DNA of 39,202 bases from Vampirovibrio sp. (GTDB lineage: Bacteria > Cyanobacteriota > Vampirovibrionia > Vampirovibrionales > Vampirovibrionaceae): contig JAHQWC010000145.1 of the NCBI GenBank assembly GCA_019634025.1, forward strand, positions 1 through 39,202, written 5' to 3'. The notes under the pieces were generated by a model. That model searched no databases and was not told the origin of the DNA. It was given only the letters and a program-made list of their open reading frames with translations. This document shows positions 213 to 23,199 of this stretch, in pieces. The position numbers were made by a program, and so were the translations under genes. Each line of letters starts with the position of its first letter. Position 1 is the stretch's first letter.

Positions 213-584
213 TTATATAGGTACCTTACTGTCAATATGTTCACTAACTTTTTGAATTAAGGTTGTGACAGTAAACGGTTTTAAAAGGTAGTCTTTCACA
301 ATTACAGATTGCTGTTCAATGTATCGTAGTAAGTCTTTTTGACTCAAAGCAGAGGTAACGAAATAAGGAATAGTATAATGATCTAAAGATGGAATAAGGC
401 TTAACCCATTTCCGTCTGGCAAAAGTACATCCAACATGACCAAATCTATTTTTGTTTCGATAATTGACGTATTTGCTTCCCCTAAAGTAGAAACAACTTG
501 TACCTGATGATGGAAATGCTCCAAAATATCCTTATTAATGGTTAAGGAATTTGGATCATCGTCGATAATTAGAATATTTGCCAT
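213..584 (-). CDS. single-domain response regulator (CheY-like receiver)
   Basis: A 123-residue stand-alone receiver domain. The acidic pocket is D8-D9-D10 (IIDDDP), the phospho-acceptor is D52 in VMLDVLLPDG, a T/S-A switch is seen in FVTSALS, and the conserved lysine is in LLKPF. There is no output domain, so it probably passes phosphate on or acts by protein contact. It lies 23 bp downstream of the histidine kinase at 608-2227 on the same strand, which suggests a kinase-regulator operon. Start ATG at 582-584 gives the canonical MANILIIDDDP opening. Assignment to the receiver family is secure; its partner and output are inferred. Confidence 0.9.
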   Translation of the reverse strand: MANILIIDDDPNSLTINKDILEHFHHQVQVVSTLGEANTSIIETKIDLVMLDVLLPDGNGLSLIPSLDHYTIPYFVTSALSQKDLLRYIEQQSVIVKDYLLKPFTVTTLIQKVSEHIDSKVPI

Positions 585-607
585 GTTATTAATATGAAGT
601 TCTTTAC

Positions 608-2227
608 TTATAATGGAGGTGTAGTGAGAAGAATACTTTCTTCTTCAAGTTTATTTACATCCTGGAAGACAGGTAGGTAAATAATAAAAGTGCTGCCTTG
701 TCCAAGTTTAGATTGAACTAATATTCTCCCTTTATGATAGTCAATAATATTTTTAGTAATGGGTAGGCCAAGACCTGTTCCCTGTGTATATTCTTGGTTT
801 TGATTTCTTGTTTGTTCAAAAGGAAGAAAAATTCTATCAATATCTTTTTCAGGAATACCAGATCCTTGATCTGAAACAGAAATTATCAATTCATTATCAT
901 CAGATAACTGTGCTGAAATGAGAATTTGTGTATGTTCGGATGAGAACTTATGAGCATTTGTGAGAAGGTTAATGAGTGCTTGTTTAATTTTTATGCGATC
1001 AATATACATATAAGGTAGATTAGGATCAATTTTTTTGATTAAAACCTGGTTTTTATTTTGAATAAGAGGCTCTATAAGATGACAAGCCTGATCAATAATA
1101 ATTTCGATACGATTTTTATCGCAGTTTAGAAAGTATTTACCGGATTCTATTTTTGCGATGTCAAGAAGCTCATCAATCAACGATAATACATGTTTTCCAC
1201 TTTCATTCATTCTGTAAATATAGGAGGATTGCTTGTCTGAAAGCTCACCAGTAACCCCTTCTAGCATAAAATCAGATGATGTAATAATGGTACATAAGGG
1301 TGTTCTTAATTCATGGGTAATGCTGGATAGAAATTCGCTTTTCTTTTGACTTGCTTCCTCCGCTTGAATTTTAGCCTCCATCAATTCCATTTCAAGCTTT
1401 TTCTTTTCTGTAATGTCTCTAATAATACCAATAAGCCCAACAACTTCTCCGTCATTATCAAAACAAGGTGCTTTCATTGCCATATAATATTTTTGCTTTT
1501 CCCCATGAGTAGAATTGAGTGTAAATTCAACATCGCTTGGCAAGCGACTATTAATGACAGCAATATCTGAGGCTTTAATTTTTTGATACGCATCGGGCAT
1601 AAATATATTTTTATCATCTTCGCCTATGATTTCTTCAATTTTCTTTCGGTGAAAAGTAGCACCTGCTTGATTAATATAATCATATTTACCGTTTAAATCT
1701 TTAGACCAAATAACATCTGTTGCAATATTCTCAAACGAATTTAAAATAAAGCGGGTTTTTTGTGAGAATGTCTCTTTATTTGGACTTTTGTGTAGCTTTC
1801 GCTCTAATAATTGTTTAATAGCATAGGCAAAAACCTTATATTTGGATTTATGAAAAATATTATCAATTTGCAATGAGAATAAATATTGAGCTTGATCGAT
1901 AAAATACTCTTCTACCAAAACCCAAAACGTAACTTTATCGTTTAAGAGAGAGCTTCTTACTCTAGATAGTGTTTCTAGGCCAAATGTTGTCAAGTCATAA
2001 ATAACAACCGTGTGTATACTTTCCGAAAGCTTGTCATCCAGCTTACCCAAATAATCGACATGTTGAAGCTTAACTTCCAGGTGGAAGCTCCTTAATTGTT
2101 TAGCATAGTCAACCAACAATTCTTTATCTTTGGTGAGGACCAGACATTGACAGCCTGAATCTTTAGTGGGGCTTGTTATCATAACAACCTTTTGAATTTT
2201 TAAGGTTTTTTCTATCTTTTGATACAT
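608..2227 (-). CDS. PAS-domain sensor histidine kinase with N-terminal pseudo-receiver-like region
   Basis: A 539-residue soluble-looking sensor kinase with no obvious membrane helix, so probably cytoplasmic. Order of parts: residues 1-150 have alternating hydrophobic strands and helices (VVIYDLTT near 75-81) resembling a degenerate receiver domain; residues about 160-275 form a PAS/PAC unit ending GIIRDITEKKK; a short coiled coil leads to the HisKA H-box SITHELRTPL with H305; then the ATPase domain with N-box LINLLTNAHKFS and G-boxes SDQGSGIP and GTGLGLPI. All catalytic motifs look intact. AAAGG lies about 10 nt upstream of the ATG. It is divergent from the glutamate-synthase-like gene at 2311 and followed by a receiver gene, so the pair may govern the neighbouring metabolic genes. 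The signal sensed is unknown. Confidence 0.92.
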   Translation of the reverse strand: MYQKIEKTLKIQKVVMITSPTKDSGCQCLVLTKDKELLVDYAKQLRSFHLEVKLQHVDYLGKLDDKLSESIHTVVIYDLTTFGLETLSRVRSSLLNDKVTFWVLVEEYFIDQAQYLFSLQIDNIFHKSKYKVFAYAIKQLLERKLHKSPNKETFSQKTRFILNSFENIATDVIWSKDLNGKYDYINQAGATFHRKKIEEIIGEDDKNIFMPDAYQKIKASDIAVINSRLPSDVEFTLNSTHGEKQKYYMAMKAPCFDNDGEVVGLIGIIRDITEKKKLEMELMEAKIQAEEASQKKSEFLSSITHELRTPLCTIITSSDFMLEGVTGELSDKQSSYIYRMNESGKHVLSLIDELLDIAKIESGKYFLNCDKNRIEIIIDQACHLIEPLIQNKNQVLIKKIDPNLPYMYIDRIKIKQALINLLTNAHKFSSEHTQILISAQLSDDNELIISVSDQGSGIPEKDIDRIFLPFEQTRNQNQEYTQGTGLGLPITKNIIDYHKGRILVQSKLGQGSTFIIYLPVFQDVNKLEEESILLTTPPL

Positions 2228-2293
2228 GTCAAATGTACCTTTCGATACATTTTATTCTAATCGAATTCCATTGAAAATAGGAATAGAGAGTAA

Positions 2294-2309
2294 TAGTACT
2301 TTTTTACTA
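2294..2309. promoter_or_regulatory. small dyad in divergent kinase / glutamate-synthase-like control region
   Basis: The 83-bp divergent spacer contains the inverted repeat TAGTA-N6-TACTA directly before the GTG at 2311. Its position fits an operator or a short 5' leader hairpin, but the arms are only 5 bp, so chance is possible. Confidence 0.2.
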
Positions 2310-2310
2310 G

Positions 2311-3933
2311 GTGACTTATTGGGATAAGTATTCAGAATTTAAAAAGGGGAAATTAGTGAGCTTATTGCCTGAAAAAACAGAACATATGGGATCTGACGGA
2401 ACAGTATTGAAGAGTGGTAATAGAAGTAGTGTTCTGGCTCGCTCTGGCTATTGGTCTAATCGACCAGTTTTTGAAAAAACATTATTAAGAGATACAACGA
2501 GTTATCAATCTCGCCCTAAGCCCATTTCTGAGGAAATATGGAACCTTATTACCAGACGGTCAGACGGTTTGAAAGATCTGGAAGTACTAGGTAGCGCTAC
2601 TGATGTGTATGCGGTTGGTTATGAGTCCCTTATTCCAGCTTATGTGAATCCGGAGATCAAGAATACTGCTTATCGCGTCACAATTGGCAGTAAAAAATGT
2701 AAAAAACCCTATGAAGCTTCTATCTTTAACTGTTCTGCCCTTAGTTATGGGCCTTTAAGTAAAAATTTTATTATGGCCATCAATAAAGCTGCATCAAAGG
2801 GCGAATTCTACCAAAACACTGGAGAGGCCGGGATTAGCCCTTATCATTTTGGCATCGATCTCGACATTGAAGATCCGGATTTTGAAATAGATAGGTTTAT
2901 TGAGGATCTTTCTGAAATACCTATAGATATGCTGCCACAGATAGGGGATATTGTTTGGGAAATTGGTAACGGATACTTTGGATGCCGCACAAAAACAGGT
3001 GAATTCGATCCCGTCAAGTTTCAAAAAATTGCTCAACTCCCCTACGTCAAAATGATTGAAGTGAAAATTTCGCAAGGAATGGCACCGAATAAAGACCTTC
3101 CAATGCCAAGCCTGACTACAGGATTTGCAAAGATTTTGAATGTTGATCTGGATACTCGAGTTAAGTTGTCACCAGGGCATTCGGAGTTTTCGACGCCGAA
3201 AGAGCTTGTTGAGTTTATTGATAAACTTCGGACATTGTCTGGCGGTAAACCTGTTGGGATTAAAATGTCGCTGGGGCGAAAACATGAATTCTTAGCTATT
3301 TGTAAGGCAATGGTCAAGTTAGGGTTGCCGATTGATTTTATAACCCTGGATGGAATGGAGGCAGGGACCTCAGGTAGTGCAAGAGGAGTTGCTGGTTTTT
3401 GTGGTGTTGCCCTAGATGATGCCATTGTTTATGTTCATAATGTTCTTTCTGGATTAAATATTAGAGAACAGGTAAAAATTATTGCATCAGGGCGAGTTTT
3501 TACCGAGCGGGAAATTATTCTTAAGCTTGCAAGAGGAGCGGATATTTGTGCGACAGCTCGAGGAATTATGGTTGCTGCGGGCTGTGAGCAGCAGCGTGAC
3601 TGTTATAAAGGAACATGTGCTAAGGGTATTGCAACACAGGATAAAACATTACAAAACAGGTTGGATCCCTTTCTGACTGCTGAACGTATCTATAGCTATC
3701 ACGAGATTACGATGAGAGAAGTGACCGAACTACTTTCTATTGCTGGCCTTACTCATCCAAGTCAACTGCGCCCTCATCATGTGTATAAACGGATTAGCTA
3801 TACCGAAGCAGTTCCTCTGGACAACGTTTACGACTATATAAAACCTGGACAGTTGATGTCAAAAATAAATTGGCGTCTTCCAAAGCAATATCGTAAAGAT
3901 TGGTTTAGGGCAGATATTCACACCGCATTTTAG
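2311..3933 (+). CDS. FMN-binding glutamate synthase-like protein (stand-alone GltB central/FMN domain with 3Fe-4S cysteines)
   Basis: A 540-residue protein matching the FMN/Fe-S synthase part of glutamate synthase, without the N-terminal amidotransferase or C-terminal GXGXG domain. Hallmarks: NTGEAGISPYH near residue 170, VKISQGMAPNKD (family VKxSQGAKPG), TLDGMEAGTSGSAR (family DGxxGGTGAAP), ASGRVFTEREI, and the 3Fe-4S motif C425-x5-C431-x4-C436 followed by GIATQ. Such stand-alone proteins often act as reductases or amidation enzymes on substrates other than 2-oxoglutarate, so glutamate synthesis should not be assumed. The glycine-rich FMN motif is modified (EAGTSGS), which may indicate a different substrate. 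The GTG at 2311 has no Shine-Dalgarno; the in-frame GTG at 2356 has AAGGGG 6 nt upstream and may be the real start (525 aa). The GRAS-like gene follows 21 bp later. Confidence 0.85.
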   Translation: MTYWDKYSEFKKGKLVSLLPEKTEHMGSDGTVLKSGNRSSVLARSGYWSNRPVFEKTLLRDTTSYQSRPKPISEEIWNLITRRSDGLKDLEVLGSATDVYAVGYESLIPAYVNPEIKNTAYRVTIGSKKCKKPYEASIFNCSALSYGPLSKNFIMAINKAASKGEFYQNTGEAGISPYHFGIDLDIEDPDFEIDRFIEDLSEIPIDMLPQIGDIVWEIGNGYFGCRTKTGEFDPVKFQKIAQLPYVKMIEVKISQGMAPNKDLPMPSLTTGFAKILNVDLDTRVKLSPGHSEFSTPKELVEFIDKLRTLSGGKPVGIKMSLGRKHEFLAICKAMVKLGLPIDFITLDGMEAGTSGSARGVAGFCGVALDDAIVYVHNVLSGLNIREQVKIIASGRVFTEREIILKLARGADICATARGIMVAAGCEQQRDCYKGTCAKGIATQDKTLQNRLDPFLTAERIYSYHEITMREVTELLSIAGLTHPSQLRPHHVYKRISYTEAVPLDNVYDYIKPGQLMSKINWRLPKQYRKDWFRADIHTAF

Positions 3934-3954
3934 CATTTAAAGAGGTAGTCACTC

Positions 3955-5064
3955 ATGAACACCTATACAAAGACCTATAAACCTTATGAACGTATAAAAA
4001 ATATTGTATCTCTATTGCGAAGTTCGCAAGTTAAAAAAGCTTCTGAAGAAATAAGAACTTTTCCTAAAAATGATCTTATAGGCTCATCAAACGAAAAGCT
4101 TTTGGAACAGTATTTTCTAGACACTATCCATCAGTATATTGAGAAAAATGCCTGGGAAGTTCCTAATTTGTATCTCATTGATGATAATCATGAGCAAATT
4201 AAACTTTTTAACCTCATGGCAAAAAAATTTATTCTTGTTACAGAAGCACAGGAAATGGTCAATCGACTGATTAGAAATCAATTGACTCTAGAGTCTTGTC
4301 AGTCAGACACAATTTCTATTATGGATATTGGGATTGGATCTGGACAGCAATTGTGCAAGATACTAAAGCTATGGTATGAGAGTCACATAGTATTTCCAAA
4401 ATTAATATACGTTTATGGTATTGAACCTTCAGTGGAGAGCCTAAGTTTAGCTCAAGAGCGTTTGGAGAAAATAGCTATAGATTATGGGTTTCTTCTAAAG
4501 TTTATTCCTTTTAACATGACAATAGAGGAAATGATGGTTGAAAACTGGTCTAATATTAATGAGATGGTTTATTTAACGGGTAGTCGACTGGTTGTCAATG
4601 CTTCTTTTTCTCTCCACCATATTCCTATCAAAGATAGGGATAAAATATTTATTCGATTACAAAATCTAAAACCAAGTCTATTTACCTTTATAGAACCTTA
4701 CGCAGACTATATAACCGAAGATTTAATGACTAAATTTAACAGTGCATGGCAGCATTATTTAATGACTTTTAGTGTGATTGATGATATGAGTGTTACAGAG
4801 GAAGAAAAATTATCAATTAAAACAAAGTTTTTTGGGCGGGAAATTCAAGATATATTCTCTGAAAATAGTATTGAACGGTATGAAACAGCTGAAATGTGGC
4901 TTATGAGAATGGAGTTGATGGAATTCTGCACTTACAACTATCATAAGGCAATTACGGACTATGATAAAGATCCCCGTCTAGACTATGAATTTCGTCCTGG
5001 TTATGTGACCTTGGGTGTTCATAATGTTCCAATAGTAACAGTTGGAAGCGTCTTCTCAGAATAG
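3955..5064 (+). CDS. bacterial GRAS-family protein, predicted Rossmann-fold SAM-dependent methyltransferase
   Basis: A 369-residue protein with the ordered landmarks of GRAS proteins. A leucine-rich first part (FNLMAKKFILVTEA..VNRLIR) precedes the VHIID-equivalent IMDIGIGSGQQL at residues 122-133, which is also a glycine-rich SAM-binding motif I. Then come YGIEPSVESL, VVNASFSLHHIP at 213-224 (plant VN-x-LHHL), FIEPYAD (plant VEQEAN), FNSAWQHYLMTFSVIDDM (plant RF-x-YYSAxFDSL), GREIQDI at 294-300 and RYETAEMWLMRM from 308 (plant R-E-R-H-E-x-W-x-x-R-M). Plant GRAS proteins include DELLA and SCARECROW regulators; bacterial members have been proposed to be small-molecule methyltransferases. AGAGGTAG sits ahead of the ATG and the gene is probably cotranscribed with the glutamate-synthase-like gene. 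The substrate is unknown. Confidence 0.8.
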   Translation: MNTYTKTYKPYERIKNIVSLLRSSQVKKASEEIRTFPKNDLIGSSNEKLLEQYFLDTIHQYIEKNAWEVPNLYLIDDNHEQIKLFNLMAKKFILVTEAQEMVNRLIRNQLTLESCQSDTISIMDIGIGSGQQLCKILKLWYESHIVFPKLIYVYGIEPSVESLSLAQERLEKIAIDYGFLLKFIPFNMTIEEMMVENWSNINEMVYLTGSRLVVNASFSLHHIPIKDRDKIFIRLQNLKPSLFTFIEPYADYITEDLMTKFNSAWQHYLMTFSVIDDMSVTEEEKLSIKTKFFGREIQDIFSENSIERYETAEMWLMRMELMEFCTYNYHKAITDYDKDPRLDYEFRPGYVTLGVHNVPIVTVGSVFSE

Positions 5065-5066
5065 TA

Positions 5067-5693
5067 CTAGGAAACTAGTAAATTGTGGTTTAAAGCTATA
5101 GAGGCTGCATGCGCACGGTTTTCAGCATTAAGCTTTTTCCGAATATTCATGACATGCGTTTTAACAGTTCTTTCGGTTATAAAAAGCTTTTCCCCAATGT
5201 ATTTGTTGCTTTTGCCTTCAATAATATACTTTAAGATCTCTTTTTCTCGAGGACTAAGAAGATCTTGAGGGTATTTATTCTGATAATGGCCAGACCATTT
5301 ATATTCCTTTTTTATAGTCTGATGTTGCCACATAGCCCGACGTCCAAGAGATTCTATATAAGCAAGCATAACGCTAGATTCATAAGGTTTTGTAAGGTAG
5401 ACATCTGCCCCCTTTGATAAACCTTCTACTGTATTTTGCTGAGTTGTTTTAGAAGTAAGCATAATTATAGGAAGGCGGCATATATAAGGATCTTCTCTAA
5501 TAGTTTTTAAGACGCCTATGCCATCTAAACCTGGCATTACAATATCAAGAATCACAAGATCATATTTTTCTTTATCTTGATTAAGAATTTCTAACCCTTG
5601 ATAACCATTTACAGCAACATCCACATTATAACCATGGAAAGTGAGCAAGTCACAAACGGCATCTGGCTCATCATCAACAACGAGAATATTCAT
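5067..5693 (-). CDS. NarL/FixJ-type response regulator (receiver + LuxR HTH)
   Basis: A 208-residue DNA-binding response regulator. Receiver: D7-D8 acidic pair in MNILVVDDEP, phospho-acceptor D50 in LVILDIVMPG, MLTSKT switch, and lysine in LTKPY. After a linker, the LuxR-type HTH reads LSPREKEILKYIIEGKSNK then ITERTVKTHVMNIRKKL. I place the start at the ATG 5691-5693, because GGAGG lies about 11 nt upstream and a TATAAT at 5724-5729 predicts transcription starting near 5717. The upstream in-frame GTG at 5709-5711 would leave almost no leader. It is convergent with the GRAS gene (2 bp gap) and has no adjacent kinase of its own; the kinase at 608-2227 is a candidate partner. Confidence 0.93.
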   Translation of the reverse strand: MNILVVDDEPDAVCDLLTFHGYNVDVAVNGYQGLEILNQDKEKYDLVILDIVMPGLDGIGVLKTIREDPYICRLPIIMLTSKTTQQNTVEGLSKGADVYLTKPYESSVMLAYIESLGRRAMWQHQTIKKEYKWSGHYQNKYPQDLLSPREKEILKYIIEGKSNKYIGEKLFITERTVKTHVMNIRKKLNAENRAHAASIALNHNLLVS

Positions 5694-5723
5694 AGAGCTT
5701 TTTACCTCCACTCCAAGAGGGGT

Positions 5724-5748
5724 ATTATAAGTTCGTTACGTGAACTTA
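5724..5748 (-). promoter_or_regulatory. promoter with embedded dyad for the LuxR-type regulator
   Basis: On the minus strand a perfect -10 TATAAT (5724-5729) lies 30 nt upstream of the ATG. A 21-bp dyad, TAAGTTC-N7-GAACTTA (5728-5748), overlaps the -10 edge and fills the spacer toward -35, where no good -35 hexamer is seen. That arrangement suits regulator-controlled expression, possibly autoregulation. Confidence 0.4.
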
Positions 5749-5843
5749 AGTATAACAAATGATTTTATTTAGTTAAAGTTTACTAAAGATGTGTTAAACC
5801 TCTATGTATTTTATCCTAAAACTTGATGGGTAGAGATTAAATG

Positions 5844-6353
5844 TTAATGGGAGACAAAAATTTTGTTATTACTACTAGGTTTAAATCTTCTTTCAAATGT
5901 GAATGCATGTTCATTGGGACCTATTTCCGTAAGCAACTTTAGACGCTCTTTTGCCTCTTTAAGTGTTGGTCGTATATCTTTGCTGATCCACCATAGAACA
6001 TAGTTGGGAGTGCTCATTTCACAAAACCATTCTCTGCGTCTATCCATCATTTTAGTATGTTCTGGACTGCGAGTGTAATCCCATAGTGATTCAACAGATT
6101 CCCAAACAGAAAGATTAAAAAGCATTCCAGGTTCGCCATACATTGTAAGGTCATCAGGGTTATTAATATCAACTTTAAGATGCCAGACAAACCCTGGACT
6201 CTCATAAGCTAATTGGTTAACACGAGGTAAATTTTCGACAAAACCAGCCATAGGTTTGTCATGAATATAAGCAACTGCTGGTGCTACATTTAGATGGCAC
6301 AGATGATAAGCACTTGGTTTCAAATTTTCATTTTCAGGAATTGGGCTGCTCAT
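5844..6353 (-). CDS. DUF3291 domain protein
   Basis: A 169-residue protein matching DUF3291 along its length. Recognisable family signatures are YHLCHLNVAPAVAYIHDKPM near the start, FVENLPRVNQLAYESPGFVW, LFNLSVWESVESLWDYT, MMDRRREWF, YVLWWISKDIRPTLKEAKER and NEHAFTF close to the C-terminus. The family is uncharacterised; I believe it is a dimeric ferredoxin-like barrel related to ABM monooxygenases, which would make it a small enzyme or ligand-binding protein. The gene stands alone on the minus strand with 190 bp upstream before the next divergent gene. The family call is firm, the function unknown. Confidence 0.82.
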   Translation of the reverse strand: MSSPIPENENLKPSAYHLCHLNVAPAVAYIHDKPMAGFVENLPRVNQLAYESPGFVWHLKVDINNPDDLTMYGEPGMLFNLSVWESVESLWDYTRSPEHTKMMDRRREWFCEMSTPNYVLWWISKDIRPTLKEAKERLKLLTEIGPNEHAFTFERRFKPSSNNKIFVSH

Positions 6354-6543
6354 TTCCTGTTTCCTTTTATTTAAGGCGTACCAAATGCTAGAGTTTATGA
6401 CAGCGTGAATAAATCTATCGAATTATAGCCTAAAAACAAAATAGCACTTTGGGATTGTTAGTCCTTTTGATACATATAAAATTTTGATTTATGAGTGTAC
6501 TCTAAATATTATATGATAAAGTAAGTGAGGCTATATTTAAAAA

Positions 6544-6765
6544 ATGAAAGCAACACGTAAATATTTCAAGTGCCCAAAATGCTCTGAAGTATTTTGGGTT
6601 CCTTTATCTAAAGGCGAAATAGCAGTTGAGCTAACGCTTTACAGAGGGCATGAAGGGATGTTTCAATTTTGTACAAACTGTGAATATGTTAATTTAATTG
6701 AAAACTACCCTGAATCTTCTTATAAAGAATTTGCACGGTATGTTGCAAAACAAGGCGTGGGATGA
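6544..6765 (+). CDS. small zinc-ribbon-like protein
   Basis: A 73-residue protein with two Cys pairs, CPKC at about residues 9-12 and CTNC near 46-49, spaced as in a zinc ribbon. The rest is unremarkable. The ATG at 6544 is preceded by GTGAGG, but 13 or more bases away, a poor ribosome-binding arrangement. It lies 39 bp upstream of the O-methyltransferase on the same strand and may be cotranscribed with it. I do not recognise a specific family; a metal-binding adaptor or transcription-related role is guesswork. Confidence 0.6.
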   Translation: MKATRKYFKCPKCSEVFWVPLSKGEIAVELTLYRGHEGMFQFCTNCEYVNLIENYPESSYKEFARYVAKQGVG

Positions 6766-6804
6766 CTTATTCTATTAGGCAATTGCCAGGCAGAAAGGAA
6801 TATA

Positions 6805-7857
6805 ATGCCAGAGCTAACCATTAATCAAGATACTCAAAGTGATCACTGCCAAAAAGCGCTTTCTTCTCAATTCATGCAAATGTTAACCGGTTACTGGGTC
6901 TCTCAAAGTATTATGACGGTTGTAAAGCTTAACATCGCTGACGAATTGAAAGAGCAGCCCCAAGATATTCACATGCTCTCAAAATCTGTAGGGGCACACC
7001 AAGATAGTCTATACCGGCTTATGAGAATGCTCTCAAGCATTGGTATTTTTAAAGAGTCAGAATCTCAAGTGTTTGGACTGACACCATTGGCTGAGCTTCT
7101 ATGCTCCGATTCTCCGAACTCTATGAAACCAATGGTGATGATGCTTAGTGGTGAAAACTATACTGCCTGGGAGCATTTGTACGAAGGTGTGAAATCGGGT
7201 GAATCGCCTTTCGAAAAAGTATTTGGTATGGAAATTTTTCAATACTTTAATACTCACCCTAATGCTCAGCAGGTTTTTAATAATGCAATGGCAACTCTAA
7301 TTAGAAGTGATAGTACTGCCATTATTAACGCTTATAACTATGATCAACACCAAACGCTTGTTGATGTTGGTGGTGGCAATGGTATGTTACTGACCACACT
7401 CTTGAGCCATTACCCAAGCCTATCTGGTGTATTGTTTGACTTACCTTCAGTAATAAATGGTGTAACAGAGAAACTCCGCGCTGAATTTGAGGATAGGTGC
7501 CATACTGTTTCGGGAGATTTCTTTGAATCTGTGCCTGCTGGCGGTGACTGCTATGTTCTTTCTAGAGTGATTCGTGGTTTTGATGATGAACGCGCTCTTA
7601 AAATCTTAAATAACATCTATAAGGTTATGCCTGTTCAAGGTAAGCTCTTGCTTATGGAATTTATATTAGAGTTGGGCGATGATCCTTCAACGGCTACAAC
7701 GAAGTTGATGGATATCAATATGATGGTATTCGCGCCTGGCGGAAGAGACCGGACAGAGGAAGAGCATCAAACTCTTCTTCAAAAAGCTGGCTTTGAGTTA
7801 ATCAAAGTGATATCAACAGAAAATGATATCTGTATTCTTGAAGCGATAAAGAAATAA
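6805..7857 (+). CDS. SAM-dependent O-methyltransferase (class with N-terminal dimerisation domain)
   Basis: A 350-residue methyltransferase of the plant-COMT/hydroxyneurosporene type. Residues about 20-100 form the winged-helix dimerisation domain (LTGYWVSQSIMTVVKLNIAD, then SVGAHQDSLYRLMRMLSSIG). SAM motif I is LVDVGGGNGMLLTTLL near residue 185, followed by FDLPSVI, the motif RVIRGFDDERALKIL where typical members have H-x-W-x-D-E, and LLLMEFILE. The usual catalytic histidine in L-x-x-x-I-H-x-W-x-D is replaced (RVIRGFDDE), so methyl transfer may use another base or the protein may be specialised. AAAGGA lies 6 nt before the ATG. Such enzymes methylate phenolic or polyketide-like small molecules. 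It ends 19 bp from the convergent GNAT gene. Confidence 0.88.
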   Translation: MPELTINQDTQSDHCQKALSSQFMQMLTGYWVSQSIMTVVKLNIADELKEQPQDIHMLSKSVGAHQDSLYRLMRMLSSIGIFKESESQVFGLTPLAELLCSDSPNSMKPMVMMLSGENYTAWEHLYEGVKSGESPFEKVFGMEIFQYFNTHPNAQQVFNNAMATLIRSDSTAIINAYNYDQHQTLVDVGGGNGMLLTTLLSHYPSLSGVLFDLPSVINGVTEKLRAEFEDRCHTVSGDFFESVPAGGDCYVLSRVIRGFDDERALKILNNIYKVMPVQGKLLLMEFILELGDDPSTATTKLMDINMMVFAPGGRDRTEEEHQTLLQKAGFELIKVISTENDICILEAIKK

Positions 7858-7876
7858 TCTTTTTACACGTAAACGC

Positions 7877-8899
7877 TTAATTTTTTGCCCATAGATGCTT
7901 AAGCTTAGCTTTAATTCTTGGAATATGATAAAGCCATTTTGTGTATAAACGCCCTTTTACAGATTTTGGATTGGGTATTACCAAACTATAACAATCATTG
8001 GTGTGTGTGGTAATTTTTAATTTATAGGGGTAGTCTCCGTAACACATGTTCACTTCTGTAATACCCCACTCCGGTGCTATTTTCAAAATTTCATACATAC
8101 ACAGAATAGATGGATAGTGATCCAAGTATTTACCGGTGTTAATCCCTAGAACTGAATACAGGGTATTTCCAGAGATAATATCCACATCCATAGAAGCCAC
8201 CTCATCCCCAAGCCGGTATTCATAGAGGTGCAGGAGTCCAGCCTCTGCCAATTCCTTTGCCCAGGCTACCATAAATTCCTGTTCTTCAGGGTCTTTAAAA
8301 TAGGAATAACCGGCTTTTTCTTCCCAGTATTCAATGTGGAGCTCAAAAAACTTTTTAAAAAACGCATCAATATTTTGTTCGCCCTCAATACGAACCAATT
8401 CCGGGTTTAAATTTTCAACAGCTTTAAATTTTCGCTTAATATTCTTTTGACGGCTTTTGCTCTTTCCAGATAAATAGCCTTCCCAGCCTCCGGTTAAATC
8501 AATCACGTGCTCTGACGGGATGGGTAGTTGATAAAGAGTATACCCTTGGCTTTCCAGCAGGTTAAACGCTTGTTTACTTCGGCGGTGGTTCCCCCATTGA
8601 ACCATCATATAATCCCATTCCACATTGTCAGCATAGGGTTTAAATTCACTTACCCGTTTCAGGTTAAAGTCTTGGCAGTATGCGTTATTCCATCCCGCAA
8701 TACGTATTTCTTTCAGTGTTGTCAATTTTTTTAAAAACGGCTTATGGTGCACACAAAAATCTCCTTGGCGATGGGAGATCAAAAATTTAGGCGCCAAGTG
8801 CTGCCACCAGCACTGATGAAAGCTGTCTGATTCATATAGATATTCATCAACGGGTGCTTGTACATCACCAATCGAGATAGGTGTAGTCGTTGCGGTCAT
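7877..8899 (-). CDS. CelD/BcsL-like (BioF2-type) GNAT acyltransferase
   Basis: A 340-residue protein whose C-terminal half matches the Acetyltransf_6/CelD group of FemAB-like GNATs. Evidence is the basic segment GKSKSRQKNIKRKFK near 145-160, an aromatic helix (FFELHIEYWEEKAGYSYF), EYRLGDEVASMDVDII, and the closing CYGDYPYKLKITT motif. This group acylates polysaccharides or peptides; one member is associated with bacterial cellulose synthesis. No signal peptide, so cytoplasmic. CAGGT is placed about 10 nt before the ATG. A GH8 glycanase of the type seen with cellulose operons is present 10 kb away (19104), but no synthase gene is visible, so the link is weak. Confidence 0.78.
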   Translation of the reverse strand: MTATTTPISIGDVQAPVDEYLYESDSFHQCWWQHLAPKFLISHRQGDFCVHHKPFLKKLTTLKEIRIAGWNNAYCQDFNLKRVSEFKPYADNVEWDYMMVQWGNHRRSKQAFNLLESQGYTLYQLPIPSEHVIDLTGGWEGYLSGKSKSRQKNIKRKFKAVENLNPELVRIEGEQNIDAFFKKFFELHIEYWEEKAGYSYFKDPEEQEFMVAWAKELAEAGLLHLYEYRLGDEVASMDVDIISGNTLYSVLGINTGKYLDHYPSILCMYEILKIAPEWGITEVNMCYGDYPYKLKITTHTNDCYSLVIPNPKSVKGRLYTKWLYHIPRIKAKLKHLWAKN

Positions 8900-22236: not shown

Positions 22237-23199
22237 TTATAGACAGGTATAGTTTTGGGATTGATGATTACCGGCCTGACAGATACCAGAGGAATCAAAG
22301 TGGACGGTTTCTGACGCTAAAGCAGAATCACTCATTAAACCCATATCATTCTGTACAATGGACTGCACGGCTCCGTGCTGAACGACTTCACCTAAAAATA
22401 AAATCTCGCAGGCAAACTCTTCAATCAATGCTTTAACGCCAGGATCGTTCATGGCCCCACTAGCTTCTGCTTGGTGGTATAAATCAATGAATGCTTGAGT
22501 CTCTGGAAAAGCTAAGGGAGCACTAAAAGGGTCTGGTCCAACATCCTCCGGCCCGACCACAATATTTACGCCACCATAGCCGACAGCATTAATTAAATCT
22601 GCTGTTGTGTAGTATTTTCCATCAATGGTGACATAAGAGCCTTGAAACTCGCCAACAGTGTGGGCGCTATCTGCAATGGTTGCCAAGTGCCCTTGAATTT
22701 TCCCCATAAAATGTCCCTGATTGGCCAAGGCCATGAGTAATGATTGCTGGTTCTTGTCAATTTCTCCAGACCTTGCCAAAGCTTTTGCTAATGCTTTCAT
22801 TTGGTTGGCTAGTTTCATCGTTACCCCGTTGGCACCTGTGGCATCAATTTCTGCCTTTAGGGATTTGGGGAGCTCAAAACTGAGAGATTGACCGTTGCTA
22901 AGGGTGATTTCAACCTGATGAGAACTGGATGTGCTCGTAGACGTGCTGGTTGATCCTGTGGCAGAAGTGCCGGATGTGTTTGTGCCATTTGGTATTCCGG
23001 TGGTAGCTGGCTGATTGGCTTGTTGGTTTGAATTCATTCGGTCAGCCATGTCGCTGCTATATGTTTCCAAGCTTGAGGATAAACCTCCTACAGAAATAAA
23101 GGCAAAGAGGGCTACCATGGCGCCCATAAAGCTGTATTCGACCATTCCCTGTCCTGAATTAGAGAAAGTTCTCATCAACTGCATAGACCTCTTCAGCAT
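22237..23199 (-). CDS. Flp-type pilin-like protein with long C-terminal extension
   Basis: A 320-residue protein. The N-terminus SNSGQGMVEYSFMGAMVALF matches Flp/TadE-like prepilins: possible cleavage after G16, Glu at +5 (E21) and Tyr at +6, then one hydrophobic helix (19-42). Ordinary Flp pilins are 50-80 residues; here a Ser/Thr/Gly linker (about 75-92, TSATGSTSTSTSTS) leads to a 220-residue domain with TLSNGQSLSFELPKSL, a helical part, and a C-terminal segment with three cysteines (C264 region, C305 region, penultimate-but-one C). The ATG at 23197-23199 lacks a ribosome site; ATG 23182-23184 has AAGAGG just upstream and may be the real start (315 aa). No tad secretion genes are in the window. 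I infer a surface pseudopilin or adhesin. Confidence 0.68.
   Translation of the reverse strand: MLKRSMQLMRTFSNSGQGMVEYSFMGAMVALFAFISVGGLSSSLETYSSDMADRMNSNQQANQPATTGIPNGTNTSGTSATGSTSTSTSTSSSHQVEITLSNGQSLSFELPKSLKAEIDATGANGVTMKLANQMKALAKALARSGEIDKNQQSLLMALANQGHFMGKIQGHLATIADSAHTVGEFQGSYVTIDGKYYTTADLINAVGYGGVNIVVGPEDVGPDPFSAPLAFPETQAFIDLYHQAEASGAMNDPGVKALIEEFACEILFLGEVVQHGAVQSIVQNDMGLMSDSALASETVHFDSSGICQAGNHQSQNYTCL

Follow-up and report, generated by a model that had tools for sequence, protein, structure and literature searches.

In plants, GRAS proteins have central roles in gibberellin, root-patterning and symbiosis signalling. They are believed to derive from bacteria, and no function is known to have been established for any bacterial member. 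The existence of bacterial GRAS proteins is itself already known from Zhang, Iyer and Aravind (2012, Bioinformatics 28:2407), and the passages on that work in three later papers (PMC5332381, PMC4279901, PMC5834537) present the bacterial proteins as proposed members of the Rossmann methyltransferase superfamily, with most plant GRAS proteins described as thought to lack methyltransferase activity (PMC5834537). In glutamate synthase, hydride transfer from FMN reduces 2-iminoglutarate (PMC8097209). The window, i.e. the whole stretch of 39,202 nucleotides that was analysed (contig C139 in our set), comes from a 2.48 Mb MAG that is 79% complete. The GRAS-bearing MAGs closest to it carry the labels Vampirovibrionales, Vampirovibrio and cyanobacterium, and the source genome is a Vampirovibrionales-like MAG from the basal, non-photosynthetic Cyanobacteriota, a lineage that includes the algal predator Vampirovibrio chlorellavorus, predation being a trait of that species (PMC4451040). 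The features at issue lie near the start of the window:

213..584, minus strand: CheY-like response regulator made of a receiver domain alone, downstream of the kinase gene (PF00072, 1.4e-14)
608..2227, minus strand: histidine kinase with an N-terminal pseudo-receiver-like region, PAS_4, HisKA and HATPase_c (Pfam), divergent from the GltS-like gene
2311..3933, plus strand: protein with a stand-alone Glu_synthase domain (FMN, [3Fe-4S]-type), a member of the GRAS-linked clade (PF01645, tree, alignment)
3955..5064, plus strand: GRAS-domain protein, predicted SAM-dependent small-molecule methyltransferase (PF03514, AlphaFold2 model, profile search)
5067..5711, minus strand: LuxR/NarL-type response regulator (Response_reg and GerE), convergent with the GRAS gene
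5844..6353, minus strand: DUF3291 protein (PF11695, 1.7e-43) with weak resemblance to ABM monooxygenases (E=0.2)
6805..7857, plus strand: COMT-type O-methyltransferase (Dimerisation and Methyltransf_2, Pfam)

A sequence-only reading of this locus had claimed that the product of 3955-5064 (369 amino acids) is a GRAS protein with the plant landmarks in order, and this was borne out. The product matched the Pfam GRAS profile PF03514 at E=4.1e-22 (79 bits, against a curated cut-off of 27 bits), the profile alignment being limited to positions 93-333 of 374, and the quoted motifs are all present: IMDIGIGSGQQL at residues 122-133, VNASFSLHHIP at 214-224, FIEPYAD at 245-251, GREIQDI at 294-300 and RYETAEMWLMRM at 308-319. 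Many residues of these five motifs are invariant in an alignment of six bacterial GRAS proteins. Of the five plant subregions (LHR I, VHIID, LHR II, PFYRE and SAW), the central three are clear in the window protein and the LHR I-like N-terminal and SAW-like C-terminal ends have diverged; the N-terminal end is better in the relatives G008 and G010 than in the window copy. By sequence, the protein matches the solved structures of SCL3 and SHORT-ROOT and, more weakly, DELLA RGA, and a profile made from the six bacterial proteins matches plant DELLA1 (2e-27) along most of its length. The AlphaFold2 model has a mean pLDDT of 68, with values mostly between 80 and 95 in the Rossmann core (residues 121-250), and when it was compared with the PDB by Foldseek the 12 best matches were all plant GRAS structures (1e-15 to 3e-11), ordinary methyltransferases coming next at about 1e-7, the first of them at 8.5e-8. 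With profile, sequence and fold matches in hand, the assignment rests on more than motif reading, and these data clearly show that the product is a true GRAS-domain protein.

Both ORFs were confirmed where the earlier reading had placed them: the GltS-like gene ends at 3933 and the GRAS gene starts at 3955, on the same plus strand and with a gap of 21 bp. GRAS genes were found in four of the 18 sampled genomes of the order (that of the window, G008, G010 and G014), in the same four among 289 genomes of the class sample, and in one, the window's own, among 386 genomes of the phylum sample. These four genomes span four genera and two families, and in every one the GRAS gene adjoins a member of the same GltS-like clade. 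The pair thus recurs in these relatives, and it stays adjacent even though the GRAS proteins are only about 35% identical and the surroundings differ. The two genes are co-directional in the window and convergent, overlapping tail to tail, in the other three genomes, and for this reason the adjacency, not an operon, is the conserved unit; the operon of the sequence-only reading is plausible in the window but was rejected as the conserved arrangement. Members of the GRAS-linked GltS clade score 894-914 bits, as against at most 561 bits for other relatives in the order, with or without GRAS, and no member was found in the 14 GRAS-negative genomes of the order.

Outside the phylum, where the chromosomes of other phyla were covered unsystematically, GRAS genes were seen on two Skermanella plasmids; these were the only two GRAS genes found on plasmids, and neither has a GltS-like neighbour. 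In both (L030 11719-16420 and L031 11617-16290) the GRAS gene is convergent with a PAS kinase gene and an OmpR-type regulator lies near, an association of GRAS with a kinase that is independent. A scan of genome contigs for further GRAS genes returned only the three known relatives, by short peptide patterns that would miss distant GRAS proteins. A weak, sub-threshold GRAS match (18.6 bits) lies at L006 1501-1752 in G029, a genome from another family of the class. Viral contigs and phages held no GRAS relative, and a viral or phage origin was rejected.

The product of 2311-3933 (540 amino acids, with an uncertain GTG start at 2311) had been described as a stand-alone GltB-like FMN protein with an intact C-x5-C-x4-C cluster, and it is one: it matched PF01645 (Glu_synthase) at E=2.4e-51 and solved glutamate synthase structures at E 5e-15, and the cluster cysteines C425-x5-C431-x4-C436 are in place. 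PF01645 was the sole Pfam match above cut-off in this protein, and no glutaminase domain was found. In the tree, the GltS-like proteins linked to GRAS group together, all four in a single long-branched clade with a support of 100. We compared them with 15 homologues (ten paralogues from the order and five plasmid proteins), in all of which site 258 is lysine, site 276 is arginine and the GAKPGHGG loop is kept; in the four GRAS-linked proteins site 258 is alanine or glutamate, site 276 is leucine or methionine, and another loop, shorter by two residues, takes the place of GAKPGHGG. These four also differ in the TGEGG and EGGTG segments, the three cluster cysteines are retained across the clade, and an insertion of about 30 residues is common to the clade and two paralogues. 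Sites 258 and 276 align with Lys937 and Arg957 of the solved Azospirillum GltB chain, which by their spacing we take to be the equivalents of Lys972 and Arg992 of ferredoxin-dependent glutamate synthase; these residues, together with the GAKPGHGG loop, are credited with 2-oxoglutarate binding in glutamate synthase. An AlphaFold2 model of the protein (pLDDT 45) was too poor for pocket inspection and was discarded. The parsimonious reading of the alignment would be that the cofactors are unchanged and the substrate is different; the redox enzyme beside GRAS appears to have lost its glutamate-making pocket.

In the GRAS protein the pattern D124-x-G126-x-G128-x-G130, a complete SAM-binding motif, is invariant across the six aligned bacterial proteins, and an acidic residue follows strand 2 (E157, with aspartate at this position in Skermanella). 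The same alignment has N215-A216 and H221-H222 after strand 4 and also E247-P248-x-A250-D251, and the aligned plant DELLA keeps the fold and has the SAM glycine motif only in part. This pattern agrees with the published Rossmann methyltransferase proposal for bacterial GRAS proteins, and a SAM-type motif, in line with the proposal quoted in the sequence-only reading, is supported; the window protein is predicted to be a SAM-dependent small-molecule methyltransferase.

The pair does not stand alone. The four best matches of the window O-methyltransferase in the order come from exactly the four GRAS-positive genomes, and DUF3291 was found in each of these four and in two of the 14 GRAS-negative genomes; the chance of hitting the same four of 18 genomes is 1/3060, and that of six DUF3291 genomes covering all four is 15/3060, figures that overstate the surprise because of shared ancestry or co-transfer. 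The N-terminus of the window kinase (pseudo-receiver-like region plus PAS) is of a type that recurs in two relatives, in a kinase adjoining GRAS in G008 and in one adjoining DUF3291 in G014. This type is present in three of the four GRAS-positive genomes and a profile of it gave no match at 1e-15 in the 14 GRAS-negative ones, of which only the absences are informative because the profile was built from those same three kinases. In G010 the order is O-methyltransferase, DUF3291, a glyoxalase-like gene, receiver, histidine kinase, GltS-like gene and GRAS, the placing of a receiver downstream of the kinase being similar to that in the window; in G014 the O-methyltransferase adjoins the GltS-like gene, and a different contig carries DUF3291 and a kinase. 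The G008 contig breaks off within DUF3291, immediately past the GltS-like gene, and the remainder of that gene opens contig C136, with the O-methyltransferase about 9 kb on; since two contigs of this one MAG (C43 and C136; L034 15538-15678 and L059 1-406) meet in the DUF3291 gene, the module was split by assembly. The LuxR/NarL-type regulator was not seen beside GRAS in G008, G010 or G014. In the window O-methyltransferase Arg257 replaces the usual catalytic histidine, which is present in 12 aligned homologues, so this copy may be inactive or of another mechanism. The two-step modification by the pair alone that had been suggested is thus incomplete, because the pair belongs to a larger set with DUF3291, the O-methyltransferase and the histidine kinase. 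Promoter and terminator scans were near shuffled expectation and were left unused, and a defence-system reading was dropped after PADLOC gave no matches.

Third-position GC is 26-39% in the genes between 213 and 8899 and 45-66% in those from 9132 onward, and overall GC is 36.6% over the first 9 kb (213-8899) and 47.7% after it (9132-39202). This contrast indicates that the module probably entered the window lineage by horizontal transfer, as an imported island that the contig start truncates on the left. The module is AT-rich in the window only; in G008, G010 and G014 its composition matches the surroundings. The GltS-like tree, which sets the window apart from its family member G008 and groups the latter with genomes of the other family, is consistent with transfer at modest support, and the GRAS tree is poorly resolved (56%). 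The contig start also truncates an antibiotic biosynthesis monooxygenase gene (ABM, PF03992, 1.1e-5), of which the C-terminal part remains at 1-148 on the plus strand and which may belong to the same island. Inside the island, 6544-6765 encodes a small, zinc-ribbon-like protein with paired CxxC motifs and no significant Pfam match. Elsewhere in the window, the protein encoded at 22237-23199 on the minus strand has a Ser/Thr-rich stretch after its pilin-like N-terminus (GQGMVEYSFMGAMVALFAF).

We give about an even chance to the explanation that these genes form a kinase-linked cassette that modifies a small molecule, through methylation by GRAS and oxidation or reduction by the re-purposed FMN enzyme. 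Such a cassette would be a small set of Vampirovibrionales genes that moves horizontally and is controlled by the PAS histidine kinase. GRAS would bind SAM in its Rossmann core (D124-x-G-x-G-x-G130, E157) and methylate a small substrate, and the GltS-like protein would use FMN and its three-cysteine iron-sulfur cluster for hydride or electron transfer on the same or a related molecule, its own substrate being something other than 2-oxoglutarate. The COMT-like protein might add or recognize a further methylatable group, and DUF3291 may serve as an ABM-like accessory enzyme. For this explanation speak the GRAS identity, the invariant SAM motif, the adjacency in 4/4 genomes, the companion genes, the changes in the GltS pocket and the AT-rich island; the catalysis, the common substrate and the regulation by the kinase are inferred. 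Against this cassette count its presence in four genomes only, which are mutually non-independent, the scattered DUF3291 of G014 and O-methyltransferase of G008, the missing catalytic histidine of the window O-methyltransferase and the Skermanella GRAS genes without a GltS-like neighbour. An extension of the idea has the cassette producing a methylated small-molecule signal that its PAS kinase perceives, a bacterial GRAS-based signal pathway akin to the chemistry that gave rise to plant GRAS hormone signalling; this is speculative and, in our judgement, quite improbable.

The Skermanella context is also the best argument for a different role, in which GRAS is a non-enzymatic, ligand-binding regulator as in plants, acting with the PAS kinase and the response regulators, while redox state is supplied or sensed by the FMN protein. 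A PAS histidine kinase adjoins GRAS in G008 and Skermanella, and in the window and G010 a kinase is one gene away, past the GltS-like gene; response regulators are beside or near it in the window, G010 and Skermanella, and the view that most plant GRAS proteins lack methyltransferase activity points the same way. However, the SAM motif is complete and invariant in 6/6 bacterial copies, GRAS carries no fused DNA-binding or signalling domain, the GRAS gene of G014 has no adjacent kinase and kinases are common genes, and we consider such a regulator rather unlikely.

That the genes merely hitch-hike, their adjacency reflecting co-transfer on a mobile island and no common pathway, would fit the sporadic distribution (4/18), the grouping of G008 with genomes of another family and the AT-rich composition seen only in the window; we nevertheless hold this to be unlikely, as the GltS-GRAS adjacency survives inversion in four diverged genomes. 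The sequence-only reading had offered an amidation or redox enzyme as the partner of GRAS. Spelled out, this would have the GltS-like protein carry out reductive amidation or glutamate-type amination and GRAS methylate the product, comparable to N-methylglutamate chemistry. Membership of PF01645 and the cluster cysteines speak for it, and the involvement of a redox flavoprotein is supported; the amidation is not supported and is unlikely, because the lysine, the arginine and the GAKPGHGG loop attributed to 2-oxoglutarate binding are replaced in 4/4 GRAS-linked proteins and kept in 15/15 homologues. In addition, there is no glutaminase domain and no adjacent GltD or MgsA/B gene, and glutamate-type amination was rejected as very improbable. 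N-methylglutamate synthase (MgsABC) itself was set aside, with no MgsA or MgsB neighbours in the window or the relatives' regions.

The cassette and the altered GltS clade appear to be new, no prior report of either having been found in a literature search that covered few subscription papers. The same small gene set in every sampled GRAS-carrying relative offers a concrete route to GRAS function outside plants, and a conserved partner with a changed active site, together with the linked genes, provides a defined set for assaying ancestral-type GRAS activity; the cassette further suggests that one branch of the glutamate synthase FMN family has been re-purposed. Compared with that family of stand-alone domains, the GltS-like protein shares the domain and the C-x5-C-x4-C cluster and is about 40% identical to paralogues and plasmid homologues, but its clade is separate and long-branched, with the 2-oxoglutarate-attributed residues and loop replaced. 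With the large subunit GltB it shares the homologous FMN/[3Fe-4S] synthase domain; unlike GltB it has neither the glutaminase nor the C-terminal beta-helix domain, and the substrate lysine and arginine are lost. The Skermanella plasmid GRAS proteins (pSM-3 and pSR-3) are 24% identical, and their genes are convergent with a PAS histidine kinase gene and near a response regulator, with the GltS-like gene absent nearby. Like the bacterial GRAS-domain proteins of Zhang et al. (2012), the window protein has a Rossmann methyltransferase core with a complete SAM motif, and what sets the present case apart is its occurrence in Vampirovibrionales with a fixed GltS-like neighbour and recurring companions. 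With the plant proteins (DELLA RGA, SCR, SHR, SCL3 and OsSCL7) the bacterial ones share the fold over most of their length and the VHIID, LHR II and PFYRE-like landmarks, whereas the glycine-rich SAM motif and the acidic residue after strand 2 are carried by the bacterial proteins and not by the aligned plant DELLA.
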